Of a stretch of DNA of 64,000 nucleotides, positions 23,161-57,909 are shown in pieces. A model generated the notes under the pieces. The model did no database searches. It saw nothing but the letters and a program-made list of their open reading frames with translations, and was not told where the DNA came from. Both the position numbers and the translations under genes were made by a program. This DNA comes from Loxodes magnus (Eukaryota > Ciliophora > Karyorelictea > Loxodida > Loxodidae), in NCBI GenBank assembly GCA_946699065.1, contig CAMPDV010000112.1, forward strand, positions 558,001 through 622,000, written 5' to 3'. Every line of letters begins with the position of its first letter. The first letter of the stretch is position 1.

Positions 23161-23185
23161 CATTAAATTTATTATTTTATTGGTA

Positions 23186-25535: not shown

Positions 25536-25708
25536 GCTAGACAGAGTTTTAAGAATTAATAAGGTAATTATAGAAGTAAAACTCAAAAGCAAATAAAGAA
25601 GAGATTTTAAACTAAGAAGGCTAAGGTACTTAGCTTTATTCCCCTGATTAACAGCTTTTTTAGTTCTTGTGCTTTATTACTAAAAAGTGATGGATAATAA
25701 AATGATAC

Positions 25709-26317
25709 TCAACAAAGCTATACAAATAGTACAATATAAGAATTAAATAAAGCTAACACTTATGGTGCATAAGTTTAAATTTTACTAGAATAATAAGCAA
25801 AAGATTGTTGCTAATATTAAACTTACTAAGGCTGATTATTTAAGTTGATATAAGATAGTTTAAGTCTACTAAGCAAATCTACTTGTTAGTAAAAAGTCCT
25901 TTATCCTTTCGAATTTTAATTAGATAACTAGTAGTTATTTTATATATTAGAAAGCTTATACTGCTTTATGGTTTAGCACTAGTTTTAAACCTAATTTATC
26001 TTCTAAAGCATCTTTTACTTGGAATAATTTCTAATTTTATAATCTCTGATAGCAAATTCATAAGCATCCAGTTTGTTTTAGCTTCTATAATACTTATTTT
26101 ATATTTAATGTATCAATATATATTTAACTTTCATTTCAGTATATCCCTTATATAGATATATACAAACATTTCTACCACAGTCAATCTACTCTATGTATCT
26201 ATTTCAGTTTTTAATTAAATTATTTTATTTTAAATCTTCAATTAGTTTCCCTTCAATAGCTTTAAGGACTGAAATTTGATTATACTTTTTAAGTAAGGCT
26301 TCATTAGGTAGATTCAT
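25709..26317 (-). CDS. hypothetical Q/N-rich protein, right copy
   Basis: Counterpart of 17138-17746: 203 codons from ATG 26317-26315 to TGA 25711-25709, with the same unknown Lys/Tyr/Asn/Gln-rich product. Because the two arms are almost identical throughout, conservation between them does not by itself prove coding function. The even codon use and balanced residues are the main support. Confidence 0.45.
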
Positions 26318-26687
26318 ATAGGAATTTACAGATCCTTAGATAGTTAGCAATAGTATTGAGTATCAGTTTTAATCAGTTTTATGTACCAATTACTGTCATT
26401 TAGTTCCTGCTTTAACTAAAAATAGTAAGATATAGCAGCTACTAATATAAATAGAGCGTTTTATGATGGTTATAGCAGTATTCTTTATAAGTAAGAAAGC
26501 AATGCAGATAGAACTAATTTTTAAAAGAGTTCTTGATCTGAAGTATTGTTGTACTAAACTAAGGAATATTGCTCTATTATTGGAAGTAGAAAGTAAATAT
26601 TTTGATATTTCTACTTTACTAGCCATTACTGTAAGCAGAGTAAGAATATCAAATTGCCAGCATATACTAAAAGCACTTAACTTATAT

Positions 26688-28491: not shown

Positions 28492-28879
28492 TTTTTAAAT
28501 CTCTCTTTATATTTATTTTAACTAGTAAGATCTAACTAGCAGCACAATACAAAGCTTTAATCTAAAGTAACTGATTTATTTATAAGCTATACTATATTAC
28601 TTTTTTCAGTTCTTAAACAGGAAGCTGTAAGAATATAACTTAAAGGTGATTAATAAGAAGAACTAGATGCAGGATACAGAAAATGATTTAAATATAGCGA
28701 TAAAGAGACAAGTTTAGCAAGAAGAGAGTTTAAAGTAATAGTGTTAATAGGTATAGGAAATTAATTATTAGTACAGTAAGTGAAAAGAATAACATTATAA
28801 AGATCTAGTTTTAATTCTTAAAGTAAATACTAAAATAAGATTAATAAATAGATATGCTTATTTACAGTTTAATAAGAAA
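28492..28879. promoter_or_regulatory. divergent promoter region, right arm
   Basis: 388 bp lies between the starts of the coiled-coil gene (-) and the MORN gene (+). The left arm retains only its MORN-proximal part. It is inferred to drive both genes; no motif is identified by eye. Confidence 0.5.
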
Positions 28880-30835
28880 ATGGGACAGCTTAACTGTAGT
28901 AATTGCAGTTGTAATTAGAGAGAAAATGATAACAAAAATGAGATTCATACCACAGAGATTGAAAAAAGATATATAATGTAGAACTAAGTTAATATGGCTA
29001 TTCCTTAAAGTGGAATTAATACTAGTAGAAAGAGGCATTAAAGTGCTACTAAAATTCAAGCTGCTTGAAAAGGATATATTGATAGAAAGTAATTTTAGCA
29101 TCTTTAGAAGAATCATAAATCAATTTCTAAATACTTTAGGTCTGATGAAATGAATGAGATCTAAAAGTTGAACTTAGATTATAAAACTTCTGAGAGGGAA
29201 AATAGAACTTATACTTTTAGATCTGGAGCTGTCTATAGAGGTTAGTGAAAAAATGGGATGCGAGATGGAAATGGTATTTAAACTTGGCCAGATGGAGCTA
29301 AATATGAAGGGTAATGGGAGAAAAACTAAGCTTGTGGAAAAGGAAAGTTTTGACATGTTGATGGTGATGTTTATGATGGTAAAATTTTTATTTCAGGATA
29401 ATGAAAGAATGATAAAGCTAATGGGAAAGGTATTTATGTACAAGTAAATGGAGCTAGATACGAAGGAGATTGGATAAATGATCTTCGAGAAGGATATGGA
29501 GTAGAAACATGGGCTGATGGTTCAAAATATGAAGGTAATTACAAAGTAGGAAAAAAGCAAGGCCAAGGAAAATAAGAATGGCCAGATGGCTCGAAATATG
29601 ATGGAAATTGGGTTAATAACAAAATTTCAGGTAAAGGTATTTACTCCTGACTAGATGGAAGAATGTATGATGGAGAATGGCTAAATAATAATATGCATGG
29701 TAAAGGTATTTATTTCTGGGCAGACGGAAGGAAATATGAAGGTTATTGATTTGAAGGAAAATAATATGGAGAAGAATGTTAAATTTTGCCAAATAGAACA
29801 TGTTAGAAAGAAATATGGGAAAACTCAAAAAATTTATAAGTCAGCAAATTTATTAATTCTTTTATTGCTTGTTATTCTAAGGAAAACAATGAAAAAAATC
29901 CAGAAATGGAAGAAAAGTCAAATGAAGTTGAAATAATAAATTTAGGCTTGACTACAGTTTCTTAAGAAAAAAAGAACTAATCTACTTAATTTTTAAAAGA
30001 TAGAAAAATTCCATAAGAAATACTGAAAATACTGAATAGATAATGAATGGAGAGTAAAAAACTATAAAAGATAGAAGAATTTGAATATAATAGTCCTTTG
30101 AAAACTTAGTAGATTAGAGTTGACTAGTTTCTAACTATAGAGAAGAACAATACTATTTATAATGGATAGGTTAAGGATGGGTAAAAGCATGGTTATGGAG
30201 TTCAGCAATGATTAGATGGATCATGATATGAAGGTATGTGAAAGAATGATAAAGCTAATGGACTAGGAAGACTTATATATGCCACAGGAGAATGTTATGA
30301 AGGAGAGTGGAAAGATTGAAAAGCTCATGGGTTAGGTAAGTATTAAGACTCTAAAGAAGGAAGATACATTGGATATTGAAACTAAGATATTTAAAACGGT
30401 TTTGGAATAGAGATATACACAGACTAATCAATGTATAGAGGTTAATTTAAAGAAGGTATGAAGCATGGATTTGGTTTACTTCTATTTCCTAATAACTCAC
30501 TGTATTGAGGCTAATTTTTAGATAATGACATGAATGGTTAAGGAATTTTTATATGAAATGATCTAAAAACTTATAAAGGCCAATGAGTGAAAAATAAAAT
30601 GCAAGGATATGGCATTAACATTCAGCCAGATGGTAGAAGGTATGAAGGACAACACTTTAAAGGTTTAAAGCATGGAAAAGGGAAACTTTTTAATATAAAC
30701 GGCAGTAGTTGGGAAGGAGAATTTATATAAGGAAAGTTAGAGGGAAGAGCTATATATAGAGATGAAGTAGGTAATGAAAAAGTAGCAATCTTCTAGAATG
30801 GGAAAAAGACGTCTTGGGTTGAAGATAAATAGTGA
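28880..30835 (+). CDS. long MORN-repeat protein, right copy (651 aa)
   Basis: The gene runs from ATG 28880 to TGA 30833-30835, which directly follows a sense TAG. The N-terminus [11 protein letters not shown] suits dual acylation, and an IQ-like motif (ATKIQAAWKGYIDRK) lies at about residues 59-70. Eight MORN repeats up to about residue 310 match the left copy, but one repeat is missing (KYEGEYK... through RYEG). The sequence then passes the arm edge (about 29830) into a 100-residue linker and about nine further MORN repeats (NTIYNGQVKDGQKHGYG ... [16 protein letters not shown]). The frame is continuous across the arm boundary. Probable membrane-anchored MORN scaffold. Either the left copy lost its 3' half, or the arm captured it. 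Confidence 0.88.
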
Positions 30836-35092: not shown

Positions 35093-35112
35093 GTTTCTAA
35101 CTGACTAAAACT

Positions 35113-36522
35113 GACTTAATTAGTACCTTTTGAAAGTTAAAATACTATCTAAATTTTAATAATTAGCTTTCTATTCTTTTAAGTGGTTTATTTCACAATT
35201 AAATGAATGTATTATAAAACTAACTATAAAGTAAGTATCCTTGATTTGATTATTAATAACTAAGTATATTACATTGATAATAGCTTAATTAGTTATTATA
35301 TTTAGCTAAAGCATCTTAGTGGTATCCACTAATTAAAATATCTTTTGTTAATCTTCTGTTTTAAACTGTATTTGATACTCTCTTACTATTTTAATAATTT
35401 AATTAGTATCTTAATTTATGAAATAAGCTGGCTTACTGTTAAGTGTAGCAAACTAAACTAATAATAGCTGGTTAGTCTATCAAATTACTTATTTTCCTTC
35501 TTAATAAGCTATCTTTAGTTTCTTACATTTATGTAATTGCTACTAAAGGGATAATTAAATGAGTGATATTTATTCTTATATATTTAATTTTATCTTAAAA
35601 TAGAGCAAAAGGATTATAAGTATACCTATGAATTAAGAATAGAGTAGCAAACTAGAAATGCTAATAGTTTAATAAATAGAAGGAACATTTCTATTATCTA
35701 ATAGTGTCATAAGATAAAAGTTACCTATTAGTATATTATGATAAGTCTTACCTATCTCAAAACTCCATTTATTTAGCTTAGCCAAATAGCTAGTTGCTTT
35801 ATAAGTATTAACAGACTATAATCTTATTTAAAGGATAAACCAAGTCACTAATTTAAATTTTGGGTATCGCAGTTATAAAGAAAGTGGTTCGATTAAAATA
35901 TAAGGACTAATATTTGATAATATTTAGAAAATTAGTTGCATAATATTCCTTCATCAGTTAATTTATCAAATATAGTATCATTCACTATATATCTTATTTC
36001 AATCTTCCAATCAATAAAAGATTAAGCCAGACTTTTATTTAATAAATAAAAAGTTGATAAAAGGTAACTAAACTTAAAGAATATAGCCAAAGATATCTAG
36101 ACTATAAAATTAGAAAAGGATTCCTGTAAACTAAAATTACAGATCAAAGAGACTGAAGAACTAATTAGCTTTGTAGAATTATTCTATTTTATGCTAATTA
36201 GAGATAGATTTATGCTAGTAAGAAAATTATAACTTATGAAGATCTGTTTAGCTTTTAACTAAAATAATGATTTAGGGAAGAATCTTAAATTCAATAGAAA
36301 TAATTAAACTAATTACTAGAATCAAATTAATTTAATAAAAGAAGAATCTAAATCTCAATAATTAAAATAGCATAATGTTCATATAAGTAATTTCTAACCT
36401 AGGAATTAAATATCAACTATAATCAAATTAATACTAAGCATTTTTTAAACTTACCAATAAAAAAATCTATTAAATTAATAGTCTATAAAATAGCAGCTTA
36501 ATTTATAAATAAAATAAATCAT
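35113..36522. repeat. repeat segment Z, copy 2 (inverted)
   Basis: The reverse complement of 23186-24595, 1410 bp in both. The boundary at 35113 (GACTTAATTAGTACC) matches the boundary of copy 1 next to the large inverted repeat. Confidence 0.92.
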
Positions 36523-36699
36523 TAATAGAAATATAATCATTGTGGCTTAGCTTTTATTAGTCAAAGTTGTAAGTTTTCTGGAAATGGAAGAAGGAAGAAA
36601 AATATAATTGAATTACTTTAATTTATTTAGAATAATATTTTATCTTACTTTATATTCTATTTAATGCTGGACGAGAAAAAATGTCATGACCCAGATCGG

Positions 36700-37999: not shown

Positions 38000-38760
38000 C
38001 TTATTCTGTAATCTATCTAGCATTTTCTATTTTAAATTTAAAGAAACAATTGATAATTATAATAATAATGAATTATAGTGATTCCATCTTAATTAGGTTC
38101 ATCACTGTTTAAAAATTTATTAATATTGTAAAAATTTATATTTCCAATATTCATCTTAATCATATTCTTTAAGTTAATATCTAGCCATACTGAGCTAACC
38201 CTTTTATATTATCGATACCTTGCTTCAATCAATTTAGATTTAAAACATTTGTTGATTTTTCTTTATTAGGCAAATGCATTGCCCATAAAGATTTACTCCC
38301 TTTAAACATTTTTTTTCTATATAATCCTCCTGGACTACGGTGTAGATTATTTATTGATTGTCATATTTTTAAACTTTCTAGATATTATTTTAGTTAGAGT
38401 CTTCATCATTATCTTAAATTTTTCCATATTTCCTATAATATCAGCATTATTTTCTCTCTTTAATAGAAGAATTTTTGCTGGCTGAGTATCTGGTTACACG
38501 TATATATGATCTTTTGACGATTTTTTTTAAAGAAATAAGCTTTCAACCAATTCAGTTAATTAATATAATTGGTTTCTATCTGTTAAATTCTTAAATTAAC
38601 TGCTTGCAAATATTCATTTTTTAGACTATATGGTTGAAATAAGATGCTATATTTTCCTTTAAGCTCTTTTACTTGGTTTTAAAGCAATCATTTTTAGCTT
38701 TACATATTTGAAGCTATTAGAGGATAATTTTCTGATTGATTCTAAGAGAAAGCCATCTTT
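38000..38760 (-). pseudogene. gag-like zinc-knuckle ORF, copy E (decayed)
   Basis: The minus-strand reading contains KERKQCWYYRKYGKI (knuckle region with lost Cys/His), IIYTVVQEDYIEKK and DGITIIHYYYNYQ. They stand in the same order as CWFCRKPGHFVRQC, RLYVTQEGKIYR and GGITLINYYYRKK of copy A (39651-41420). Frame changes separate the blocks, so it is a relic. At the nucleotide level the stretch around 38060-38115 aligns with 40560-40615. Confidence 0.55.
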
Positions 38761-39650
38761 TCTCTGTGAGGTTTTTTACGAAAATTATATAATTTTAATA
38801 TAATAAAATACTAACTTAATCATACTCTAACTATACCATTATTACTTTAAGTAAATATTTAGTTAGAACAGAGCGAAAATATATTAAAAAAGAAGTTTTA
38901 TAATATAAATGTGTCTTAAATAAGAATCATTATAAATAGTAAAGAAATATAAGAAACTAACTAAGAATTAAGTAGATGATAATCATTTGCAGGTTTTAGT
39001 ATTTAGTTAATTTATTTTTATTGCTGCTATTATATTTTTATATTGCTTATGTATATTATTTTAATTATAGTTATTCATAGGAGAAGAAAATATATCGTAG
39101 TGGATCTATTAGAGATATAAAACTCTAATATTATTGTAACTTTAGCTTTTAGTCATATCTGGCTAATGTCTAGTGTTAATATAATTCAATTAAATTTAGA
39201 ATTTTTAGATATGAAATAGTAAAAATATCTATTTATGCAAATAATTCCCTAATTAACTGATATAAAGTGTATCAAAGGTTTCAGTTTTAAATGGTAAGAT
39301 AAAAGGATAGTTAAAGGCTAATATAAAATTATCTATTATAAGCACTCGAATAGATTTTTTTATTTCTTATTTATTGTTTGCTAATATAATAAGAAAAAAG
39401 ACTGGTTGGTATATTATTTCACCCCTTAAGTGTTTTTTGGGATCTTATATTCTCAAGAATTAACCAAATCCCTAAACTATGAGGATGATTATCAAATGTT
39501 TCTAATTTACTTAAAGTAATTTTACTATTTTTCCCATTATATTTTACATATTTCATCAATTAAATTCTTTTCTCATTGCTAATCTTTTATAGACCACACG
39601 CTTAAAAAGCCATAATAAAGCTAGAATTCCATTGAACGCTAACTAGTAAC

Positions 39651-39699
39651 TCAATTATTTTATTTTTATAATATTTATCTACTTGTTTTATTTATTTAC

Positions 39700-39735
<36 letters not shown>

Positions 39736-41420
39736 TACTTAAAGTTAGTAGAGTTTTGCATTCTCTGGAATTGCAACCAGTTCCTGCGGACAGTTTTTTT
39801 AACGAGGGTGTGATCCACGACCTTTTTATTAAGTGGAAGGTTACCACTATAACCGTTCAAGTGGTCTTGCAAAAAGCTTTTATTTGTAGATCCCTGTTGG
39901 AGTTATTCATAGTTTATTGAGTTGTCTCCATGTTCTTTTCTGCTCTTATTCGTTTATTTTCTTTCATTATCAACAGTTTTTTAAAATATGTTGATTTGTA
40001 ACATCAACAAAGTTTGTATTATTGTCTTTATTTCGTTCTTTTTTTTGATAATTTTTATATTTTCTAATCTTTTAATGAAACTTGTAGCAATCATTTCTTT
40101 TTCTGTATTCAATTCTGTTTTTAATTCTATTGGTATTTTTTCTATTTCCATTTTCGTGTCATATTTAAAGTTTTATTGTGACTAAGTTCAGAGTTATTCT
40201 TCCGTTATCAATTTGCTACAAATGAGCTATCTTCTGAGTATTAATAATTCGTTGTTCTAATCTTCTATGTTACTCATTAGTTCCCGTATTTTTTCGCCTA
40301 AGTTGTAAGTTGTTTCTTCATAATTTGAGATTACTTTTTACATTTGGTCTAATTAAATTTAAAGTTTTTGATTAGTTTCGTTTTTAGGTTAACTTATCTC
40401 TATTTATCCTACCATAACTTTACCTTCTGAAGAAGAGCTTGACTCCTCCTATTGTTATCATTTTTTCTAAATTTCTTTTGCCGCTTTTCTCTTTAGGTTT
40501 CTAAGTTAATTTTTTGAGAGTCGAAGAGATTAATCCATTTTTTTTCTATAATAATAATTAATTAAAGTGATACCACCTTTCATTAGGATCATCACTGATA
40601 TAATGTTTATAAATGTTAAAAAAAAGGAATTCTGGATATATTCTTTATAGTCTTCTTCTGTCTTATGCTTCATTATTACATATCGACTATTACGTTTTTC
40701 TCCAGGTTTTATTATAGGAATTTGGTTAAAATCTAGTTCTTTTCCAATTATTTACTAGGGTCTAAATCATATATTTTCTTCAGGACCGATTTACTAATTT
40801 TTTACGTTTGTTATCTTAAGTCTATAAATTTTACCCTCTTGAGTAACATATAATCTGCTTAATTTATTCAATGTTTTTTAAATTTTTTTATTCTCTTTAT
40901 TTTGTTTATTTTAATATTTCCAGCATTGTCTTACAAAATGACCAGGTTTTCTGCAGAACCAGCATTTAGGTTTTTCCTTCATTCTATTTCTTTTTGCTGG
41001 TTTAATTGCTGGCTCTATATCCATAGGATCGTTGTGAGAGAGATTTTTTAGAAACAGACTCTCAGTAATCTCAGTGAGTTAGTTTAATTTTTCCTCTGTC
41101 TGCTTGATTCTCTAGTTAAATTCTAGTAACTAAGGATGATTGCTGAGTTCAGTCTTGTAGTTACTATTTTCTTATCTTAGCGTGTTCACGTTATTGATCA
41201 GGCATTAGATTTATTCTTTCAGTGAATTAAGTTGTATGGAAAGTTCGTTTTTATCATTTTGCATTTTTTAGAGGTTTTCAAAAATTATTTTCTGAGGATC
41301 TAATAAATCTTAGGAAGAAGATTGGGTTAGTTAAAGCTAAGATGTGGTTAGAGATGACGCTTCAGGTTTTCTCTCCTACTCTGAGGAGGTGGTAAAAAAA
41401 CCTTTCTTGAAGCCAGCCAT
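39651..41420 (-). CDS. gag-like zinc-knuckle protein, copy A
   Basis: The longest member of the local family: open from ATG 41420-41418 to TGA 39653-39651 (590 codons). The N-terminus MAGFKKGFFTTSSEQ leads to a Gln/Glu coiled coil (about residues 50-130). A perfect CCHC knuckle follows, C-x2-C-x4-H-x4-C (CWFCRKPGHFVRQC, residues about 150-163), as in retroelement nucleocapsids. Next is a conserved block (RLYVTQEGKIYR), then a hydrophobic membrane-like stretch near residues 265-290 ending GGITLINYYYRKK, and a second coiled coil. Three TGA codons read Trp. The last about 85 codons cross a GC-richer patch and the (ATA)n run, so the true stop is doubtful. No protease or polymerase gene adjoins. 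Confidence 0.65.
39704..39735. repeat. (ATA)n microsatellite
   Basis: About ten uninterrupted ATA/AAT triplets. They lie inside the 3' end of the open frame of copy A, where they would encode poly-isoleucine, suggesting the true end of that gene is earlier or the frame is non-functional there. Confidence 0.85.
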
Positions 41421-41556
41421 TTTTTGTATATTACTATAACATACGCCATCTAAAAAGCATTACTCAAACTATTCTATCAGAATTTTAAGATAAGTTAATA
41501 AATTTTGTGTATTATATGCTTATTTAATAATCCAATTTTGAAAAAAATACATAAAA

Positions 41557-41640
41557 TGCATGCGGTGAGATTTGAACTCACTCGGGATTTCTTCCATTAG
41601 AACTTGAGTCTAGCGCCTTGGACCACTCTTCAATACATAT
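41557..41640 (-). pseudogene. degenerate tRNA-Leu(CAA)
   Basis: Aligned with 20537-20620 over its full 84 positions. The anticodon arm (CTAGA-CTCAAGT-TCTAG) and T-arm are intact. The 5' acceptor strand (ATATGTA against CGCATGC) and the D-arm are mutated so that the acceptor stem cannot pair. The upstream and downstream flanks still resemble those of the intact gene at 20537. It sits 137 bp upstream of the start of gag-like copy A, on the same strand. Confidence 0.9.
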
Positions 41641-43594
41641 TAATTTTAATCTCAAAGCATCTTTAAGTATATCACATATTTTTACAATATTTAATTTGAA
41701 AAATCTTGATTTTTATTAATAGACTTTTATATCAAATTTCTTGGTTATGGATAATCATTTTCATTTCTTTATTTCATCAAACAGACAAAACAATAACTAC
41801 CTTATTAGATATGCTTTTATATAGCTCTTTCTAGCTCTGCTTATCTTGCATTTTAAGTTATCTTAATAAGTTAATTCTAAAAGGGAAATCTATTTTTAAG
41901 TTAAATAATTAGAAATAAGTATGTATATATAAGATGAAAGGTTTATAAGCATATATATCTATCTGAGAGTTATAAAGTATGTAAGTTATTAGATTCTAAC
42001 ATGTAATCTATTATTTTTTATTAATACTTAGTGATCTAACAATTCTAATAATGCATGAATTATCATTTTACTATTAGATCTAAAATAAACTTTAGTAAGT
42101 ATATTTAAACAAATTCTTAATTATAGATCCAAAATTAATTTTAAGTATCTATTTTATTAAATTGGTCTCTTAATATAGTTGTACTTTATTCTTTACAAGT
42201 ATATAAGTGGATAAAATATATAGACATAGAAGAAGGATTGGATTAATGGAATGCATAACTAACTCTTTGTTTTACGATTAAAGTAAGAAAGTATTATTAA
42301 ATCAACTTTCGAAAATTAATAGAACTTAACTTCAGTTAGTTGCTATATCTTCATATATTCAATTTACATCTTAGAATATCATCATAAGATTTTAATCTGA
42401 CTGTAAGTGAAAATAGTCCTTTTTGCTATTTTTTCTTAATTGATATAAAAATAAAAAATAGACAACATTTATGAAGACAATGGAAAGCCAGATTATATAA
42501 AAAGGCAAATAATATAAAATATGCATACATAAACAGAAAAGAAGCATTAATAAAAATAATTAGTTACTAGGATAAAGTTATAAATTTTTATTAATTTTAC
42601 CTATTAAAATTTGTCATTAATGTATGCTTTGGTTTAATAACTACGATTAAATAACTAAAGATTAAATCTCAGCTTTATCAGACATTGCTACTGTTAATTA
42701 AAGCTATATAGCTTTACTTTCAATGAGTACTTTATTTCTAGCAATATAATCATAAAGTATAAGATAATATTTATTTTTCAGTCTTTTATAATTCATGCAA
42801 GGCTGACTTTAGTAAAATTATAGAATTTGCTCCATTCATTTTACCTAAGAGCTACGAAGAGTCTAATATAACGTATTTAAGTGAATTTGTTTTACTTTTA
42901 AAAAGTAATTTTGTACTTTTTGATAATAATATATGAATATATCTTACATATATAATTCTAACTATAAACTAAGACACTATGAATTAAATCTCTCTTAGCC
43001 TTTTATAATTAGTTTCTTTCTATTTTGATGTTCTTTTCTCTTAAATTATTTAATGGTTAATAAATTTCCTGAAGAAATACTTTTTCCTCTATTCCTGTAT
43101 ATTATAGTAATACATTTATTTATTAATAGAATAAAGTTCTATGATGTCTTTATGCTTAAAAGAACTAAATAACTTGCACTCCTTTTAATAGAATTCTTCA
43201 TCTTAGATTTTTAAATTTATTTTGGCTATTTTACCCTTGAGAGTTTACTAAATCCTTTTGCTGAGTATTTATAAGATGCTTTTATTTAATGATTTTCCCT
43301 AATGTTTTGTTAATTATTTGTATATCTCTTCACATGAAAAGTTTTGTAAGTAGATAACCTTTAAGAATAACTATCTTTGAGGCAAATGCCTTTTAAAGCT
43401 TAAAGTAGTGAGATAAAAGTAATTTTAATAGTAATTTTGTTTAAGAGTATTAAAGTTTGAAGCTACACTAGTTTGATAATTTAGCTATTTTGTAAATGAT
43501 GTCTTATTTTAAAAGAGTTAATAGAGTTTATTTTAAGTACAATTATTAAGTTATAAAAGTAGATAGTTGCTTAAAAGTTAAAGTTTAGATTTCA
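41641..43594. other. AT-rich spacer, nothing recognised
   Basis: About 2 kb of AT-rich sequence. The first about 40 bp are the conserved 5' flank of the tRNA-Leu family. No gene seen. Confidence 0.5.
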
Positions 43595-44182
43595 TCATCT
43601 ATAAGCTACCTAAGTAAAAATAATAAACCCTATTAAAACTACTGTATACACAGTAAAATGATAGATATACTTTTTCAGTATTTTAACTTCTTCAGGTAGA
43701 TATTCGTTGTATATCATGAATTCTTCTTAAGGTTACTATCTTTCTATGAATTATTGAAATCTCTCCTAGGTTTCCTAATCATTTATTTGAGATTGGAATT
43801 CTTAAGGATTTTAGAAAAATCTAATTGCTTAGTTTCCTGCTTATCAGATGTTTTAGCCAGAATAGATTTAAAAAGCGTTATCCCACATTCTATCTTCTGG
43901 AATTTTGGAATCATTAGAACGTTTAACTAGTACACCACAAAATCAGTAGAGAGTAAAAAAGCCATGAATAACTAAATAAATAATGTTAAGCACTGGAGTT
44001 AAAAATATGCCTATTATAATTAAAACAAAAAGGAAAAACTTAAATTTATCAAAGCAGCTTAGTCTTCTTCCACAAACTCCTCCTCGTATTATTAATAAAG
44101 TTTTTATTATATATTCCAAAAGGTAGATATATATGTCAAAACAAAAATAGCTAAGAAAAAATCCTGGAATTTTTGATAGCAT
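43595..44182 (-). CDS. small integral membrane protein
   Basis: The gene has 196 codons from ATG 44182-44180 to TGA 43597-43595. Hydrophobic segments lie at about residues 8-32 (FFLSYFCFDIYIYLLEYII), about 48-80 (FFLFVLIIIGIFLTPVLNII) and about 172-190 (YTVVLIGFIIF). They are separated by a short Cys/Arg loop (RGGVCGRRLSC) and a long Gln/Glu-rich hydrophilic region with Trp encoded by TGG and TGA. Gln is nearly always TAA/TAG in that region, which a standard-code reading would see as a dense run of stops. The family is unknown; topology suggests a three-pass protein of an internal or plasma membrane. Confidence 0.7.
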
Positions 44183-44214
44183 AGTGTTATTAATTCTGTT
44201 ACAATAAGCGTTGT

Positions 44215-46073
44215 AAATATTAATAACATTGTTGTATCTTTAAATAGGGTTTATTCCAATTCTAGTAGGCATATCTTGTCTAATAATTATCTGGTATTTA
44301 ATGCTTTAAATTTAGACTTAAGAGTCAGGCTAGTTTACTTACTATATAGGAGGTTAATTCTAGTTATTTTTATACTCTTCTTAAGGATAATTTTATTGAG
44401 GCTGTTATTAGAAATGCTAGGGATATGAATAATTCTATTATTGCAACTATTGCTAAGGATTATAGAAAATATTATGCTACTAATTATTTTAGTAATTATA
44501 CTGAGGAATTTAAGGAGTTTAATACTAAGCGTTGTATGGCACTGTATTTTAGTTATTTTGTTAAGATCTTGGCTAATTAGATTGAACAGTCAAAGGATTT
44601 TGTTGTATTTAATATTGCGGAGAATTAGAAATAGCTATTTATGGCTATAAATATTAGTTATCAGTTTGAATGTTACTAGCGTTGAAGTAGTAGTGAGTTT
44701 AGTTTTGATTCTACTTAAGGAAGATTTATGGCTAGATGTTTAACTACTGCGTATTTTGAGCGCTATTGTTTATAGAGTTGAAATTCTACTATTAGGCTTA
44801 AGTTTATTACTCTCAGGGATAAGGAGGTTATAAAAAACGAATTTCTAAGTTTATTCATTTTATTGAGTAGCTGTTTAATTTTACTACCTTTGTTAAGGAA
44901 CTGGTTCTGGATTCAATGCATTCTAAACAGTTGAAAAAGCTTAATCAACTGGAATTGGAATATAATGGGTTGACTATATCTAAACCTAATTAATTGGTCC
45001 TTCATTCTAAAAGACAAAATTTAAAGGTTAAGCTTCCTAAGACTAAAATTTTGTATTACCAACTTAATTCTCTGAAGAGTTCTACATGTTTAAATCTTAA
45101 AATACTGTAATTTTAAGAGATTTTTCAACTAAATTTATCAGAAATTAACAGAAATTTTAAACGTTAGAGAATGTAATTAATAGTCAAACACCATTATGGC
45201 TTATTAATTTAATAGCAAGGAAGCATTCGATCTCTCTATTTTCATTTAGAATAACAAATAATTAGAGAAAGACTAAATGACGAAAAGGCTTAGTTAATTA
45301 AGATTCCACGTTCAAGGTATATCATGCATTTGGTAAAAGATACTGAGTATTTCAATTGGTAACTTAAATAAAGAGAATTTTTCTTATCTTTATTGAGACA
45401 GAAAACAGAATAACTAAAATAAAGAAGTTATATAAAAGCTAAAGATAATTCTTTATCCTTCTCATTACCACAATTTCCAAAATAGATAAATAAATAGTTT
45501 CTTATAATTAAATCTATTAGATTTAGAAACTTATCTAATAAAAGTTATATATTAAGAATAAGTTAAAAGTATTTAAAGTCTAAAATATATAAAAAAACTT
45601 GGATGTAATAAACTTTAAGAAGTTAGTTATTATATTTTATTTAAAATAATACAATAAAGGATAAGATTTATTTTGGATAAATATTAATTAGATAGTTTTA
45701 AATAAGCTAAGGAAATAACTTAAGATTTTTTTTAATTTATTTTCTGTATTTTAATCTTAATCCTAAATTTCTTAGTTAAGAAAAGAAATCTTTCACACTT
45801 ATTTTCTTCTTTCTAAGAAAGATGATTATTTCTTTCTAAGTAAATATGTTTTACTTTATGATTATTAGTTTAAGCTATTTTACTTAAAGGAAGAAAATTT
45901 ATAGTTATCATATAAATATTATAAAGATTCTCCTCATTGATCAAGATTCGAAAAATCTATAGCTATAAGTTCTATTTAAAGCTTTTTGCTTTGATGCATA
46001 AAAAAATTTATATTGTAAAATCTTTTAAAAAGTATACAGCAATAAACTTAGTGAAAATAGCACTATAAAATGA
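44215..46073 (+). CDS. long hypothetical ORF with one frame break
   Basis: From about 44215 the frame reads as convincing protein (DNFIEAVIRNARDMNNS, SKDFVVFNIAENQKQLFMAI) to the A-run near 44835. It then continues one frame over (FIHFIEQLFNFTTFVKEL, RERLNDEKAQLIKIPRSRY, YIMHLVKDTEYFNWQLKQ) without a TGA for about 400 codons, ending at TGA 46071-46073. A missing base in the A-run, or a small intron, could join the halves. The start is not identified (first in-frame ATG 44428). Basic, leucine-rich, Gln via TAR; the second half becomes hydrophobic. No family recognised; the length without TGA argues against chance. Confidence 0.5.
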
Positions 46074-46299
46074 AAAAAAAAAAAATTAAGATTTAAACGC
46101 ATTTGTTGAAATAGAAAAAATGAAGAAAAGCATACTTTAGACGAGTATTTTTAAAATGTTTTAGTTTTATAAAGAACTTGCAAATATGTTTATAAACTAA
46201 AATAAATATCCAAATATTAATTTTTGAAAGATGTAGTTAAATCTTCCAAAAATCCCATGCACTATTTAAATCTTCAATTACAATAAAAAAAAGTTAAAA

Positions 46300-47147
46300 G
46301 TTAAAAAGCTTTGTTAAAGCCTTAGTAGTCAGCCATCTGACCTATTCTATCAGCTTGTCTCCATTAATTTGTCTTGAATTTCTACTAGGCTTAGTTAGGC
46401 GGTGTAGCACTTCATTAGCGCACCATCCTTTAATATTCTGAATAATTTTCATCTTGCATGTAGCGTTCCTAATTATTTCTCCAAGGATTAAGATTTGAAT
46501 TAAAGAATTTTTTCTATAAATGTTTCCGCTTTATGTTGGATATATCCTAAATAGTTTTCTAAAAATATCTTATTTATTCTTTCTTTAAATTTCGCTTAGT
46601 TAGTAGCAGTATTTTCATTGGTGTTATTCATTGCACACGTAGCATTTTATTCTTCTTTTAACCTATTATTCCTGTAACACTTATTTAATTTAAATTTACT
46701 ACTTATTTTAAATAAACGTTTACTGTTTATTTTAATTTGAGGCTTCATTTTCTATTTCCATAGGATCTGATTAATTCTGTTAAATCGAAAATGGCGCTAC
46801 CTGAATTTATTATTAAATTTAAAGAATTCTTTGCTCCAGTTTGTCTTCTTTTCTTATGATTATTAATATTGTTTCTCAAGTAAAGACGTTATTAGTTTTT
46901 CTAATTTTTCTACTTTATCAGTGAGGTATCTATTTTTAAACATAAACTCTTTTAATGACTTAGATAATATTTCTATTTAAGTTTGTGTCGGAAGTTTTTT
47001 TAATTCTGGATTTCCAAGTAGTTAATGTTCGTCATATCAATCATATTTCTCACTTTCACTCATTGTAATTATTTCGCTTTTTTATTTTTTAGAGAATTTT
47101 CCTGTTTAAATGTTTTGTTCGAAGTTCTGTTATTTCTTAGAAGCCAT
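46300..47147 (-). pseudogene. gag-like zinc-knuckle ORF, copy B (decayed)
   Basis: ATG 47147-47145 opens MASKKQQNFEQN and a Glu/Lys coiled coil, similar in layout to copy A. After that the homologous blocks lie in shifted frames: DPMEIENEASNQNKQ (copy A has DPMDIEP), KCYVCNEQHQWKYC (knuckle one residue short of C-x2-C-x4-H-x4-C) and LFRIYPTQSGNIYRK (copy A RLYVTQEGKIYR). It is therefore a frameshifted member of the family. The end near 46300 is approximate. Confidence 0.6.
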
Positions 47148-47529
47148 TTTATATATAATATATAATAAAGATAGTCTATCAAATTGATAATTTGGAAGAT
47201 ACAAATTTGCTAACTAAGTTGAATTGTAAAAGCATAGATATATAAAGGTTATAGGAAATGAAGCTTAACTTTAAGATATTTAAGATTTGCTTTATTTAAA
47301 AAAATAATTAATTATTTATCTATAAACTTTTATATTTTTAATTTAGATGAAAAATAAAATTAATAAGGCTTTATATAATAAGCATAAGAATTTAATAAAA
47401 GAAATAGGATAAAATAATATAATAGAGAGATAAAAATTTAGCGTGGGATGAGATATAAAGAAATTATAGAATATGTATAATTAATAAGATTTAGAATATT
47501 TTCTAAAATTATTATATACAATTTTTTAA

Positions 47530-47880
47530 TAACGTGGAAAGCCCTTTCCTTCGGATGCTGCTTAGAGACCCAGTAAGGCAACTAAAAAATGAGCGCAGAG
47601 GGAGGATAAATCGGAGAAAGAGAAACCAATAACAAGAGAAGGAAGATGCGACAAGCTGGAGAACTCTGAAGAAAAGGAGGAAATTTTCTTCATCATAGAT
47701 TGGGGAAATATATCCGTAATCGCATATTGCATCCTATGCTTTAGAAGGAAAAATTACATGGATGTACTGTAGGAAGAGAAAACAAGGATAGAGAGATCCA
47801 TAATTTTTTTTTCGACATTAAATAAAATTAATTTAAAGAGCTGCGCACCAACGAGAGTGCTACGCGCTCTATAATCCAAT
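47530..47880. ncRNA. GC-richer island with hairpins, candidate ncRNA
   Basis: About 350 bp stands out from very AT-rich flanks. The 5' part has a perfect hairpin (GGAAAGCCCTTTCC). The 3' part has a strong stem, GCGCAC-caacgaga-GTGC with outer GAG/CTC and GCGC pairing (47842-47874). No rRNA, snRNA or SRP signature is recognised. A + strand frame beginning ATGAGCGCAGAGG is also open, so coding cannot be excluded. Strand unknown. The call rests on composition and hairpins only. Confidence 0.3.
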
Positions 47881-48864
47881 TTATTTATTAATCTTTATAA
47901 AATCTACAAAAGATTGATATAATATAAATATCAATTTAAAATTAAAGATATCGAAGGAACTTAATTAGATTTATTAATGACCATATTTTTTCTTTTATTT
48001 TTTAGAGAATCCCTTTACGATTTTTTAAAATTATATAGTCTTTAGTTTTTAAAATCCGAATTATGGATTAATCTCATCTCTAAATATTTTTATAATTCTT
48101 ACGAATAACTAAATAGAGAGAAAATTATAAGTGAATAATTTTGCTATAAGAAGCAAGTAGAATAGAAACAAGAAAATGGTCTACCTAATAAAAATATTTC
48201 TGTTTATACTCTATACATACTTTAATTATTAACTTATAAGAACTTATATTTAAATCTAAGATAATTTTACAGGAGGACAATGTCTAAAATATAAAGCTAT
48301 GAAGGTTCTTTTTATTAATGTATGACTAGAAGAACTTTATAATTTATTCATTAAAAAAATATAATTTTTAATATTTGGCTTTAAAAATATCCTTATATCA
48401 TAATAATTAAAATCCTGCAAACATTTTTACTAGTAAAAATTTAATCAAAGTAGAAAGATAAAATATTTGAAGAAAAAATGAGAGAAAAATAGTTTGGAAG
48501 AAGAAAAAATTATTCTATAAATAGAATAATAAAGAAAAAAAAAATTGCTATTAAATTAAAAATTAAATAAGTTAAAATAAATTGATATAAAGTACTATTA
48601 ATAAAAGTTGGAAAAAATTAAAAATATACAATAAAGTTAAAAATTTAGAATAAAATAAAGAATAAAGATTTAATTTAGATATTGTCAGAGAAAATTACGT
48701 AATGCATTAGAAAATTATATTCTTATGAAAATAGAAAGGACAGGAAGTAGCAAATATTTAAGCATATAAAGCATATCCCTAATACTTTAATTAAATTTAA
48801 TATGCTTAGTTAAAGATTTTATTATCTATGTAATTTATATATGTTACATGATTGGACATAAAAA
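47881..48864. other. AT-rich spacer
   Basis: Extremely AT-rich sequence between the GC-richer island and the tRNA-Leu gene. No gene seen. Confidence 0.5.
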
Positions 48865-48948
48865 TGCATGCGGTGAGATTTGAACTCACGCGGGATTTCT
48901 CCCACTAGAACTTGAGTCTAGCGCCTTGGACCGCTCGGCCACACATGC
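48865..48948 (-). tRNA. tRNA-Leu (anticodon CAA), second copy
   Basis: The 84-nt gene body matches 20537-20620 with all stems intact, the same CTCAAGT anticodon loop and the same long variable arm. The 5' flank (TTTAAAATAAGC preceded by an AAAGAT-like segment) is shared with the other copies. The 3' flank diverges within about 15 bp. Presumably functional. Confidence 0.97.
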
Positions 48949-49234
48949 TTATTTTAAATCTCAGAACATCTTTAAATATGAAAAATTTAAATGAATATAA
49001 TATTTCAATCATCTCTATTATCATCATAATAAATTGGATCTAAAGAAATAATCCGGGAAGGATTATTAGGATATGGACTAGCAAAGCTCATTCATTGAAA
49101 TTCACTCCCTTGAAGCAGTAAATAAATAACTTTAGCAAAATCTAAGATTTAAATTAGCGAATCATTTCTCTAGCCTATAATACAAAAATTATAAAATAAA
49201 AATCAATTATTAAAAACGGAAATTATCAGTAAGG

Positions 49235-49860
49235 CTTCAATGTCACAAGTTAATTAAGAACTGGAAAAAAAAGTAAAAATAGAAGAAATTAAAAAGCCAA
49301 CAATTATTTATAACTAATTTGCATCACAATCCTATCAACGATCCTATGGTAACTGAAGAACAGAATGGAAAGACTCTATTGAATCGAAAAAATTTATAAA
49401 AAGGTCAAAAATTTATAAAAATAGGTCATGACTCAAAGAATTGTAAAACAAGATGCTTCTAATGTTAAAAGATTGAGCATATTTTAGAAGATGCTAATAC
49501 TTTTAGAATAAGCAAAAGTTAAATACGTAAAAGATTTGAAATAATATGACTAAATTATACTGCTCTCCAGAAGGAAAAATCTACAAGAAAAAGATATACA
49601 ATAGAGATAAATTACCATTAGATATAATAAATCCTCAAAAAAAAATTTTCGTGCAAAAATGAGATTGGAGCAGATTCCTAGGTCAAGAAAAGTTAAATTT
49701 GCATGCCGTTATCCAATAGAAGAAGTGAGTTCTGAAGAAAACTGCAATGATCCTATAATTGAAGGAAATAATCCTATAATAACTTATAAACTTATTAGCA
49801 AAAAACCTAATAATGGAAATATCACTTTAATTATCTTATTAAAAAATTATAAGTAGAATA
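49235..49860 (+). pseudogene. gag-like zinc-knuckle ORF, copy C (decayed)
   Basis: The + strand blocks match copy A in order: NLHHNPINDPMVTEEQNG (copy A NLSHNDPMDIEP), a half knuckle IGHDSKNC, then CFQCQKIEH and, after a one-base shift, LRRC (a second CCHC). These are followed by KLYCSPEGKIYKKK (copy A RLYVTQEGKIYR) and a final NNGNITLIILLKNYK (copy A GGITLINYYYRKK). At least two frame changes are needed, so it is a relic. It starts about 290 bp from the tRNA-Leu gene at 48865-48948. Confidence 0.6.
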
Positions 49861-50382: not shown

Positions 50383-52548
50383 TCACCTGTTCTATTTCGG
50401 ATAGCCTTGACCTTGATTTGGATTGCCTCCAAAGTTTCCTTATTAATAATTGCCTTACTACTGTGGAAATTGTTAAAAAATATTTGCTTAAACTGGGAAC
50501 GGATTTTATTAAATATTTTATCCATATTAAAATCCTAAATTTTATTAGCGCGGCATATATACATTATTTTACTAAATTGGTTCATATTGAAATTAAGTAG
50601 GAATCATTTAAGGTTTTTGTTAAGGAAAACTAGGACCAGGATATTAAGGTTAAAATTGAAATTAACCTCCTTAAGCCTACTATTATTATATTCCCATACC
50701 TTAATTTTATAAAGGTTATTTAGTCCCTTAATAGCCAAACTACATTTATTGTTGTTTTAATTAATATTAAGGCTACTAATATTAATCCTATTTTTTAATA
50801 TCATTTTATGAATAATAGAGATTACTTTAATATTGGCCTTACTGATTTAAAGATGGATTTTATATTTCAGTTTAATACTGAAATGCTTATTATTTGTTTT
50901 ACTACTACTGATATTATCATTAATTCTACTAGTTTAAATTTTATTATTACTAATATTATTAATATTATTGCTGCTATTTTCCCTATTAATTATATTACTG
51001 CTGCTATTAAATATATTAGGGCTAAGCTTATCCTTAAATTTATAATTATGGCTGCACTCGATTGCTTTAAATTATTTGAGGTTTATTATACTAGTATTAA
51101 TTATTCACTGGCTATTATTAAATCTAATTATAATTTTATATGAATTACTATTGATTGCTTTTCCATAAATCATTCAATTTTGAAAATTGTTATGCATTTT
51201 TTTTCTCTTCTTGTTCTTCTTGATCTTCGTCTTCTTCTTAAATATCAGTTAAAATAAATTCTTTAATATCAAGTAAATCTTTTATTTTGTTTTCACTTAG
51301 TTTATTTTTTATTGTTAAAGGATGCTTCATTACTTTTACTAGTAAATCTTTATTTTATAATCTTTGAAAGTTATTCATTTTCAAGTAACTACTCATCTTT
51401 TCAATTTAATCTCCACAATAGTCAAGTCTTTCTGCTAACTCTTCTAACTCTTTTCTTATTTAGTAATTATTACTAATGCCATTATTTTCAGCATATACTT
51501 AATAGAAGAAATCATTAGCAATTTTTATTAAAGCTATTGAAAGATCTGGTTCATCTTCACACTCCTCTGCTGCTTCTAGCCATTACTAAGCTTATAATGA
51601 TTAGTTTTATATGGAAGCAACAATACTTTAAACATCAAGTTGTTTTATTACTTAAGTTTATTGTAATTATTTAGAGAACCAAGGATGATTTAATACTTCA
51701 TAAATAGTTAGTCTATCAGACGGACTAAACAAAAGCATCCTATTTAATAGATTTTTACACTCAGGGCTGCATTCCATTTGATTGAAAGCTTTTTAAGCAT
51801 TAGTAGAATGCATGAAGGAATTAATGAATCCATTTGTATCTCTATTCATGAATCTTTAGCCAGTTAGCATAAAATACAGTACACATCCAGCACTTCATAT
51901 GTCTACTTTTAGGCTTTGCTTAAATTATCTCGAAAACACTTCTGGAGCAGCATAACTTCTAGTTCCTGCTACAGTACTTTGTTATGTAGAATATTTCTTT
52001 AGTTTTTTAGATAAACCGAAATCAGCTATTTTTAAATGAGGAAATTCGGAATTATCCGTGAGAAGAAGATTATCAGGCTTTATATCTCTATGCATAATAT
52101 TTTTATCTGCTAAAGCCTTCAAACCATTACAAAGGTCTCGGAATAAATGCTAAGCTTAAGCTTCACTTATTTTTGCTTCTTCTTTACTAGCCACAAAGGA
52201 CGTAAGAGTTTCCCCTGCCATAAATTCTTAAATGACCCAAACAGTACCAGTCTTGTCTATTATATAGCCAATTACTTAAACAATATTATCACTTTCAGCT
52301 TCTTAAACATGCCCTATTTCTCTATCTTTTAAAAGGTCTGCTAATTATTTTCAATTAGGAATTTATTTAGGAATATTTTCATATGTCAGTTACTTCAGTG
52401 CATAGTAGTTATTAGCATTTTTTTCAGGAGGGCTTACTTGCATAATATTAGGAGGAGCTTCTTTTTTGCAAGCCAATCATACAGAAGCCATGCCACCTTG
52501 GCCTAACTTCTTAATAATTCTATAAGGTCCTAGGACTTAATTTTCCAT
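50383..52548 (-). CDS. Ser/Thr protein kinase with Q/N-rich tail (721 aa)
   Basis: ATG 52548-52546 to TGA 50385-50383, continuous, with no intron. The kinase domain spans residues 1 to about 275: glycine loop GQGGMASVWLA, YYALKQL lysine, [29 protein letters not shown] (Trp by TGA), and HPWFSK near the end, all catalytic residues present. A helical region and an acidic run (EEDEDQEEQEEE) follow. The last about 260 residues are a Gln/Asn/Tyr/Gly/Pro-rich, prion-like tail in which almost every Gln is TAA or TAG, ending GNPNQGQGYPKQNR. Related to the genes at 55186, 59990 and 62261. The nucleotide block 51213-52176 is duplicated at 60096-61057. Confidence 0.92.
51213..52176. repeat. direct duplication, copy 1 (kinase C-lobe block)
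   Basis: About 0.96 kb, nearly identical to 60096-61057 in the same orientation. It covers the kinase HRD-to-C-lobe part and the helical region of the gene at 50383-52548. Homology ends abruptly at both sides. Confidence 0.93.
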
Positions 52549-55185: not shown

Positions 55186-57909
55186 ATGGAAGGAAAGATA
55201 ATAGGAAACTATTAGATTTTAAAGGTACTGGGAGAAGGAGGATTTTCTATTGTATATCTGGCGAAAGAAATCTCATAAGGTAGTAATACAAAAGAAAATT
55301 AGTTTATAGCACTAAAATTAATTACCAATTAGGCTATTCCTTATGATACTCCAGATCGAAACTAAATTATAAAGAACTTGATTGATAAAGAAATTGGAAA
55401 TTCTAAAGAGGTAAAAAGTAAAAATATTGTTAAGATTTTAGGTAAAATTGAAGATTGTGAAAATAGAATCTGGACTATTACAGAGTATGTGGCAGGGGGA
55501 ACTCTTACTAAATTTGTGGCTAGTTAAGAAGATCCAAAATTGAGTGAAGTTTAAGCTCAGCATTTAACCTGGGATCTTTGCAATGGTTTGAAATGCATAG
55601 CCGATTGTAATATTATACATAGAGATATCAAGCCTGATAATCTTCTTCTGACGAACAATTCTGAATTTCCTAACTTAAAAATAGCTGATTTCGGTTTATC
55701 CACTAAAAATTTAGCGGCATCTGGAAAAGAAAAATGCGGAACTAAATATTATGCTGCTCCAGAAATGAAATCTGACTTCTTTGATCAAAGTTTAAAAGTA
55801 GACGTCTGAAGTGCAGGATGTGTGCTTTATTTTATGCTAACTGGCTAACGCTTCATGGTTTTTTTTACCGAAAATGATTTTGCTGATACTTTTGAATTTT
55901 CTAATAAAGCTTAAGTAGCATTTTAGTAACTGACTTGCAGTTTAGAGTGCAAAGATTTACTGTAAAATATGCTTAAACTTAATCCAAATGAAAGAATAAG
56001 TATCTGGGATGCTTTATAGCATAAGTGATTTATTAAGTAGCAATAATAGCAAAAAATAATAAAAGAAGGACAAGATTCAGAAGATTTAAAATTATAGTAA
56101 GGTGAGCTTTGGTTATAAGCAATAGGTAATTTTGAGAATTAGCCAGATCTTCAAGTAGCTGTCTTGAAAATAGCAAATGACTATTTTTTTTAATTGCTAA
56201 ATAGCGAAGGTAGCAAGATCTAATAACAATAGAACATCAAAAAATATGTCCTTATAAATTAAAAAATTGACTAATGTTTGACAAAAATAGAAGATATAAG
56301 AAGGAGCATGGAGTAAACAAATTACAAGGGATTGACGTAAATTGAAATATTTAAGAAAATAAAAAACCATCCATTAAGTATAAAATGTAATATAAGTGAT
56401 ACCAAAATAAAAAATTTGCTAGAGATTAATTAATTAACTCTAATTGAAGCAATTGAAGATGAAGATGAAGATGAAGAAGATGAAGATGAAGGAATAGATC
56501 CTAATAGGATAAACTAAGCTTTGAACTTTCAATAAATAAATTAGTCTTAGTTAAATTATTTCTTATCTGAAGGAAGAAATTTCGAATAAAACACTTAGAA
56601 ATTGTATTTTTAAAGTTAGATTACCTAAGAACAAGATGATCAATTAAATACTACTAAGTTATAAAAGTAAAGCATGAAATAATGTTTAGAATAGCAGCAA
56701 CACAATTTATAAAATTTTCAATGGACTTAGGACTAAAATACTCAATAAGGTAAATAGTTTGAACTCGTAAATCCACAAAATTAATATGATTTCTAGGTGA
56801 AAAATCAAAACCCTACCTTCTAAGTTTAGCAACAAAACTAGCCCTTTTAATTCACTAGCACTTTTCAATACTAAGATTAAAGCTAACAAAGTAATTAATA
56901 TTAAAATCCTTCTTAAAATGTGTAAAACTAGTAGTAATTTCCAGTCTAGAATTATGTAGAAGTCCCTTTGATTCAAGATTATAATTAGGATTATTTTAAA
57001 TTTATGTAGCAGAATTTAAAATAAGAGAATCGGTAAGATTAGTAGCATACCTTCACTTTATCAAGCTAATAGAACTTTAGACCTTAAAATTAAATTTAGG
57101 AAACTACAATTAGCTTTCAGAATTACTAGAATGCGCAAAAGTTATAAAACGAAGTCTAAATTCTTTAATAGTAGTTTAGAAATCTGCATAACATGGAGAT
57201 TATGAATCAGACCTCTCCAAACTTTTGTAACTTAGAAAAAAACCAACGCCTGTAAATGTCTCCAATGAATTAGTAAGCATAGTAAAATCCTTAAACCACT
57301 TTCAAGTAAGAGACTTAATTAAACTTTTAGTACCAAAACGTAAATTCCCAAAATTTATTACTATAAAACGCATAAGTTTAGAACAACTCTTTATAATGAA
57401 ATTAACAATAGAGCAATTAATAAACTGGATAAGAGAGCTTAGGATACAGATAACGTTAAACAAATTTTAGTTTTAATGTATTAAGCCCTTAGACTAATTA
57501 AGAGTAGTATAAGTTTAAATTAAACTAAAGTTTTGAAATCTCCCCTAATATTAATGCATAAAATTAGTTTCCAAACAAATTGTAATAAACTAATTAAAAT
57601 CAACCGTTTTAGTAAATAAGAGCTCCGTACAACTTTGTTTATTAGCCTAGTTAAACTATTCCTATTATTCAGAACTAACTCCAAAGCTAGAATAATCAAT
57701 ACTAGTCCACCTTTATTACTAATTAATAAGTTAATCCTTAAAATTATTTTTCAACTCCTTAGAACTAGTACTTTTATTAAGAAAATCAAGCTCAAGCTCC
57801 ATAGAATTTTTATTAATAGAACATCCCTAACAGGAACTATTCTTAGTTAGAAGATACTTTTAGAGTTAACACAAATAATATAGGAAATCAGAACGAAGTG
57901 AAAAAATGA
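55186..57909 (+). CDS. Ser/Thr protein kinase with long Q/N-rich tail (907 aa)
   Basis: ATG 55186 to TGA 57907-57909, 908 codons with no intron. N-terminal kinase domain: [14 protein letters not shown] loop, IALK lysine (about residue 44), HRDIKPDN (Asp about 147), DFGLSTK (about 168), YAAPEM, DVWSAG (TGA Trp at 55807), HKWF (TGA Trp). All catalytic residues are present. A regulatory helical part follows with an acidic run ([13 protein letters not shown]). Then come about 450 residues extremely rich in Gln, Asn, Pro and Tyr, with Gln mostly TAA/TAG, so a standard-code reading sees dozens of stops. A TGA inside the tail (about 57399) must be read as Trp for the reading to reach NQNEVKK at the end. 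Gln/Asn tails of this sort often drive condensates. Confidence 0.92.

Follow-up and report, generated by a model that had tools for sequence, protein, structure and literature searches.

Short gag-like units without a polymerase in the ciliate Loxodes magnus: probable non-LTR retroelements that parasitise resident LINEs

The window that we analysed, 64,000 nucleotides of DNA from the karyorelict ciliate Loxodes magnus (positions 558001-622000 of contig CAMPDV010000112.1), carries a family of short units that code for gag-like proteins with a zinc knuckle, and we think, with a probability of roughly 0.8, that these are short, polymerase-less, gag-only retroelements of the kind without long terminal repeats (non-LTR), which parasitise the long interspersed nuclear elements (LINEs) of the same genome. 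The well-defined copies are separate units: each is 0.84-0.89 kb long, starts 5-10 nt ahead of an ATG, and consists of one open reading frame (ORF), a short untranslated region (UTR) and an AT-rich tail, with the ORF laid out as a coiled coil, a PM(D/E)IE-like block, a CCHC-type knuckle and a KL..T..G.IY(R/K) block. We speak of types A, C, D, E and F and of a decayed copy 1 (Table 1). What an earlier note on this DNA took for a single locus, copy A at 39651-41420, is in fact two head-to-tail units, A and F, each of which is found elsewhere with other flanks.

The copies are numerous, and a polymerase is absent from the A, D and F units, just as the earlier note had remarked of the gag-like ORF; Pfam gave no endonuclease (EN) or reverse transcriptase (RT) domain on the window A and F stretches. 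Our genome searches covered an assembly of 705,730,643 bases in 7843 contigs, from which loci were cut for comparison (these carry L-numbers, such as L010 or L048), and the matches scored were a capped set from the first-look candidates (12131 for A, which reflects a loose filter and is not a copy count, 6381 for D and 10003 for F), most candidates remaining unscored. Within that scope the scored candidates match in 132 of 132 cases for the copy A protein, 150 of 150 for D and 143 of 143 for F (the last at 68-93% identity), all of these being lower bounds, so that the family is multicopy, and an origin as a single-copy cellular CCHC gene is rejected. Roughly ten additional relatives, of types A, D and E, lie in 114,254 bases of further flanks; joining the fragments in another way would alter that number.

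For type A, L010 has only 883-919 bp in common with each of 29 other loci, at 96.1-98.6% identity, a stretch that in most cases opens some 10 nt ahead of the ATG and closes at one and the same 3' end; the window matches this unit at 41429-40548 (97.6%), and 20 further loci keep the same limits (95.6-98.5%). By their 5' flanks these 50 loci represent 38 independent insertions, and in all 50 the common DNA ends within about 0.92 kb, with no RT inside. (The type A ORF carries a 24-bp insert in L055 and L056, and the L055 locus has a duplicate, L049, that is free of it.) Type D units are about 850 bp long and start about 5 nt before the ATG; the window copy is 96.1-98.2% identical to 15 others, and 11 of the 16 copies (9 of the 12 fetched) keep the ORF open as far as a TGA at codon 246. 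The view that one locus keeps an intact knuckle and a long frame while the rest are decayed thus needs amending, both because window D is young, if broken in frame, and because copy A is two units. As for type F, the window copy is 95.7% identical to L048 over 841 bp; several of the nine F copies fetched are frame-shifted past codon 117 (L090 leaves the frame near codon 118), and those that keep it show, by eye, a coiled coil, KMEIE and a canonical knuckle, C-W-C-C-KSNQ-H-ILKN-C, to which L089 and L091 add KLWITPTGIYKQK, also read by eye. The type A knuckle is likewise canonical.

Five loci had been grouped by blocks that recur in the same order, and they do prove to be true relatives. When the copy A protein was aligned, tolerating frameshifts, with the window cut into 247 one-kb tiles at a step of 500 and taken on either strand, except for the minus-strand tiles that cover copy A, the four other loci gave the top tiles, at 336 for C, 243 for E, 209 for copy 1 and 185 for D, against a best score of 154 and a median of 105 outside the named loci; segments cut around the loci scored 336 (C), 220 (E), 212 (D) and 171 (copy 1). 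With the post-coiled-coil half of A, none of 200 shuffles did as well against window C, window E or copy 1, nor against D, E and F copies from outside the window (D being represented by L080 rather than by the window copy), and the same half of D against F also gave 0 of 200. Profiles of A and D align with an hhalign E of 6.8e-6 (probability 84.6) across DPM(D/E)IE, the knuckle and KL.R.Y.TQ.G.IYR. Over 42 codons in blocks picked for their conservation, 20 residues agree between A and D, and the 19 degenerate identical residues show 7 synonymous differences, with 8.1 expected at saturation; synonymous changes thus appear to be near saturation in these blocks. A codon-position test on the frameshift alignments was uninformative, since unrelated tiles gave similar values.

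AlphaFold2, run on six sequences, gave a mean pLDDT of 46.5, with only a helix at 42-127 partly confident, and sequence matches in the PDB are weak, namely the Copia virus-like particle (VLP) protein (E 0.0048; 0.025 with a profile) and retroviral nucleocapsid (NC) knuckles. Judged by its motifs, a coiled coil with a CCHC knuckle and no RRM fits none of the LINE ORF1 types I-IV directly, as these are set out in PMC4120745.

The 3' end and the insertion sites

The shared blocks were thought to finish in a hydrophobic, membrane-like segment, GGITLI-YYY, joined to the nucleocapsid-like part, and whereas the PM(D/E)IE-like block, the knuckle and the KL block stand, this last element does not. In different type A copies, three frames enter the 3' end beside a T run of variable length (7 in 5, 8 in 18 and 9 in 10 of the 38 copies, with 5 not measured), and a membrane segment was rejected as unsupported. 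The starting frame is kept near codon 265 in 36 of the 38 independent copies (L027 and L035 are out of it), and from the ATG one of the three 3' frames, in 10 of 38 copies, stops at TGA TGA. The window type A copy enters its 3' end in a different frame from that of its own TGA TGA at 40594-40589, and window copy C has TGA TGA at the matching position. GGITLI is read in the ATG frame in 17 of 38 copies, a number raised by the choice of the first 30 loci, which were picked by score against copy A and so favour its frame. Since the stretch that begins at TGA TGA is conserved as a hairpin common to a LINE, we regard TGA TGA as the stop; the YYY is the (ATT)n tail or a target microsatellite. GGITLI-YYY is therefore best read as 3' UTR plus (ATT)n tail, the choice of stop being our inference.

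The reading frames of the window require table 27, with TAA and TAG as glutamine and TGA as tryptophan, and codon 218 of type A is an in-frame TGA in 32 of 38 copies, the remaining six differing partly through indels. A MORN-repeat gene, duplicated at 13855-15050 (-) and 28689-30385 (+), has TGA in frame at tryptophan positions, which in the ORF at 28.7-30.5 kb we take as a sign of the karyorelict code.

The insertion sites speak for a copy mechanism of the LINE type. Around type F, the longest string common to the two flanks averages 13.7 nt, compared with 6.9 for 90 mismatched pairs (2 of which reach 12), and target-site duplications (TSDs) of 12-17 nt are found in nine of ten copies. Around the 36 copies of type A compared, the mean is 8.31 versus 7.83, and 2 of 500 shuffles come up to the observed value. 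In L050 a D copy is interrupted by a type A unit, with 7-8 nt duplicated; the D unit of L052 is missing from the paralogous sites in L016 and L033, which are empty; and the window has an inverted duplication whose plus-strand arm lacks copy C, again an empty site. Instead of poly(A), the tails consist of (ATT)n or AACTTT repeats, and copies lie within many contigs and inside other repeats, so insertion is not confined to telomeres. Taken together, the empty sites, TSDs and 3' tails point to LINE-type insertion by target-primed reverse transcription. Gag fragments of LTR retrotransposons, which the faint Copia VLP similarity and the NC knuckles might bring to mind, are a highly implausible source: we saw no sequence common to the unit ends beyond short TSDs, and these vary in length and accompany tandem AT tails. 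The window units contain neither a tRNA nor an Rfam hit that passes the curated threshold, and the ORF of type F is constrained, so that they do not fit short interspersed nuclear elements (SINEs), which have a Pol III small-RNA head and code for no protein.

Resident LINEs and constraint on the type F frame

A genome search with RVT_1 put 150 of 150 scored matches over the cut-off, a lower bound drawn from 3403 candidates. LINE1 (L059 and L060, 96.4% identical) is 5.5 kb long, and in L060 one frame holds Exo_endo_phos_2 (1.3e-12) and RVT_1 (2.5e-34); for LINE2 (L061), the endonuclease lies in the part given to Pfam and the RT comes from the RVT_1 genome search. Pfam gave no RRM or CCHC on the LINE stretches at E 0.01, and by eye each LINE ORF1 (LINE1, LINE2) has one CCHC motif. 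LINE 5' ends were read at four loci of two families. The first 111 bp of type A are 85.6% identical to the LINE1 5' end (E 5e-28), and the first 21-35 residues of its protein match LINE1, few LINE families having been read. At the other end, type A is homologous to LINE2, with a score of 45 that none of 5000 shuffles reached (highest 32); it has no match to the 3' ends of LINE1 and LINE3, where 254 and 249 of 2000 shuffles did as well. In the hairpin common to A and LINE2, 97.8% of cells are paired, a value as high in only 3 of 500 shuffles (slid versions give at most 73.3%), and the cells altered on both sides number four, which 3 of 500 shuffles match or exceed.

Such ends could also mean that the units are internally deleted LINE derivatives, HAL1-like or SIDE-like, with an ORF that is nothing other than the ORF1 of some LINE nearby in the same genome. 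That type A joins 111 bp of a LINE1 5' end to a LINE2 3' end would suit this, as would the single CCHC motif of the LINE ORF1s and an A-LINE1 ORF1 score above most shuffles. We nevertheless hold it to be unlikely, as far as the four LINE loci of two families that were read can tell, since in the half of A past the coiled coil 0 of 200 shuffles do as well against D, E and F, and 4 and 12 of 200 against the ORF1 regions of LINE1 and LINE2. A further thought is that gag units and LINEs are two halves of a split retrotransposon, the units supplying a protein that the LINEs need too; units and LINEs do adjoin in L059 and L063, the ends of type A recur in LINEs, and the ORF of F is under constraint, but LINE1 and LINE2 apparently possess a knuckle-bearing ORF1 of their own and the LINE1 of L060 has no adjoining gag unit, which makes the idea rather improbable in our eyes.

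Several neighbourhoods deserve a mention in their own right. In L059 and L063, a D-type and an E-type unit begin about 50-90 bp past the 3' end of a LINE that lies on their own strand, and none does in L060. Short LINE1 3' ends of about 64-78 bp recur in the flanks of L028, L051, L026, L057 and L019 and in the window (Table 1), lying directly upstream of the type A unit in L026 and L019. The 3' hairpins of LINE3 (L063) and LINE1 (L059/L065), AGTGC/GCACT and AGAGC/GCTCT, differ in an apparently compensatory way. In contig C20 (2028-7877) and contig C5131, RT domains recur at an exact spacing of 2532 bp, with a second set in C5131 at 2504 bp, and in C20, which is the part that was read, every repeat ends in the LINE1 3' end.

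Constraint on the protein shows in type F. Between its two subfamilies, F1 and F2, which we named after inspecting the sequences, nonsynonymous divergence (dN) is 0.078 and synonymous divergence (dS) 0.549, a dN/dS of 0.14 (0.07-0.26) over 24 pairs among ten copies and 115 codons, the opening part of the ORF whose frame is common to all F copies. The ratio is 0.15 (0.06-0.29) with the window copy and 0.13 (0.07-0.23) when four copies with a consistent frame are compared across 190 codons; individual between-group pairs, taken along the complete ORF and with frame-shifted copies among them, give 0.22-0.59, most of them above 0.35. Judged from these codons, the F protein is constrained in the lineages that spread, even though the element has no polymerase. 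A sceptic might still regard the units as processed pseudogenes, LINE-made copies of a host CCHC gene, or of a few such genes, with no role for the protein, for near-leaderless, full-length, one-ORF copies with TSDs do resemble retrocopies and the type A copies show no detectable selection. We find this very improbable, given that the tails are not poly(A), that type A resembles LINEs in its 5' end and has a hairpin of theirs at its 3' end, and that two F subfamilies spread with such a low ratio between them.

A number of results weigh against reading the units as gag-only parasites of LINEs, and they should be set out together. Although the gag-like family is real, its weakest link, D to E, is insecure: 5 of 200 shuffles do as well, and the score is about as weak as that of A against LINE1 ORF1. 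The D knuckle, CX2CX3HX4C in 12 of 12 fetched copies, is non-canonical. The TSD signal of type A is modest and its targets are AT-rich, and the F copy L088 has no clear TSD. Hairpin pairs changed on both sides number two, a figure reached by 257 of 500 shuffles, and the A-LINE2 hairpin comparison, with five sequences, is in effect one contrast; the D 3' end is only weakly like LINE1 (6 of 2000) and LINE3 (3 of 2000). Within F1 the dN/dS is 0.66 (0.29-2.33), or 0.36 (0.16-0.97) with the window copy and 0.94 without L090, and within F2 it is 0.25 (0.00-1.23), values so imprecise that a contrast with neutral drift inside the groups is not established. In type A, the 38 young copies give nonsynonymous to synonymous counts of 135:69 for singletons, where 2.43:1 is expected, and 13:5 for variants in at least three copies, so that selection is not detected at that depth.

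Setting of the units in the window

The window units and their parts are collected in Table 1. The window also contains duplicated DNA: large inverted duplications at 13855-41735 pair 15051-18854 with 24601-28405 (99.6%) and 23171-24596 with 35112-36537 (99.6%), with older arms, about 74-98% identical, on their flanks, and these duplications may be real or an effect of assembly. Genes for tRNA-Leu(CAA) at 20537-20620 (+) and 48865-48948 (-), with a third, decayed copy at 41553-41649 (-), are part of duplicated DNA, and for that reason a link between them and the gag units was dropped. Another repeated family occupies 51190-52233, 55477-55857 and 60071-61056, its copies being 98.7% and about 77% identical; Pfam gave no convincing match on read-through frames of two of its stretches.

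Table 1. Positions (in the window) and strands of the units, their parts and related features
Feature	Position	Strand	Basis or remark
Type A unit	40547-41430	-	5' end about 10 nt before ATG, one ORF, 3' hairpin, AT tail
Type A coding stretch	40589-41420	-	table 27; ATG at 41420, TGA TGA at 40594-40589
DPMDIE block	41013-41030	-	aligned with D type
CCHC knuckle CWFCRKPGHFVRQC	40923-40964	-	zf-CCHC E 0.0015, 18.9 bits, under the Pfam cut-off of 20.8
RLYVTQEGKIYR block	40821-40856	-	aligned with D type
3' hairpin AGTGAT..ATCACT	40566-40596	-	common to type A and LINE2, two pairs changed on both sides
AT-rich (ATT)n tail, earlier 'YYY'	40547-40565	-	unit-end comparison
Type A 5' end homologous to LINE1 5' end	41315-41443	-	82.9% over 129 bp in the window
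Type F unit	39703-40545	-	ATG at 40538, coiled-coil ORF, ATT-repeat tail 39703-39735
Relic related to type F coiled coil	62103-62222	+	tblastn E about 1e-5, 45% over 40 residues
Type D unit	46297-47152	-	ATG at 47147; young, frame broken by indels; 96.8% over 851 bp
Type C unit, old relative of A	38047-38797	-	tile score; missing from duplicate arm at about 21455-21496 (+)
Type E unit, decayed	49180-49832	+	tile and shuffle tests
Copy 1, decayed relative	19394-19765	+	tile and shuffle tests
LINE1 3'-end stub, 66 bp	47824-47889	+	flank/window comparison

A possible life cycle and known systems

How might such an element live? Each unit would give rise to an almost leaderless mRNA for one gag-like protein, whose coiled coil may serve self-assembly and whose CCHC-type knuckle may bind RNA, and in which the KL..T..G.IY(R/K) block is conserved. 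Probably this protein forms a coat on the RNA that encodes it, whose 3' hairpin and AT tail would be recognised by the endonuclease-reverse transcriptase of a resident LINE, and this enzyme would copy it into a nicked, AT-rich target by target-primed reverse transcription, leaving a TSD. The likely helpers are the 5-6 kb EN-RT LINEs of L. magnus, of which PMC11441545 describes rnd-1_family-27 and -19.

What the units suggest is that an element the size of a SINE and without a polymerase can apparently keep a gag-like protein under purifying selection, and this raises the question of whether a LINE parasite needs a nucleocapsid-type protein of its own. They may also put a name to part of the large unclassified repeat fraction of the L. 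magnus macronucleus (MAC), given in PMC11441545 as 757 k copies and 366 Mbp in a genome without extensive editing; the main text of that paper does not mention SINE or CCHC, and the literature that we searched held no description of such elements in Loxodes or other ciliates. A bolder proposal, which we put forward tentatively as one possibility, is that they form a distinct order of SINE-sized, protein-coding retroelements, whose subfamilies share an ancient gag-like protein while each has its 3' end from a different resident LINE, gag and polymerase having long been separate units that possibly serve each other in trans.

The earlier note knew of no retroelement to which this family could be matched, yet the kind is known in principle, in the gag-only or ORF1-only non-LTR elements without a polymerase, HeT-A and HAL1. 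HeT-A is about 6 kb long and has long UTRs, and the TR-GAG elements of plants are a further comparison case. Our units resemble HeT-A, the telomeric non-LTR element of Drosophila that encodes a Gag and obtains its RT from elsewhere, with gag conservation that suggests selection (PMC5537684), in that they encode a gag-type protein without an RT and would depend on an outside one; they differ from this telomere-targeted element in being dispersed, 0.85 kb in size, flanked by TSDs and almost without a leader. With HAL1, or half-L1, a non-autonomous derivative of L1 with an ORF1-type protein only (PMC5753468), they have in common exactly that non-autonomy and that lone protein, but where HAL1 carries the L1 ORF1p, the Loxodes protein has, beyond its first residues, at best a weak match to the local LINE ORF1s that were read. 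From the L. magnus LINEs of PMC11441545 the A, D and F units differ in having neither EN nor RT. Finally, like SIDEs such as Persaeus, which are short, reach high copy numbers and have both ends in common with partner LINEs around an unrelated middle (PMC6740152), the units are short and abundant, with LINE-like ends in type A; unlike them, they code for a protein in their middle, by an ORF that is under constraint in type F, and the two ends of type A resemble two different LINE families.

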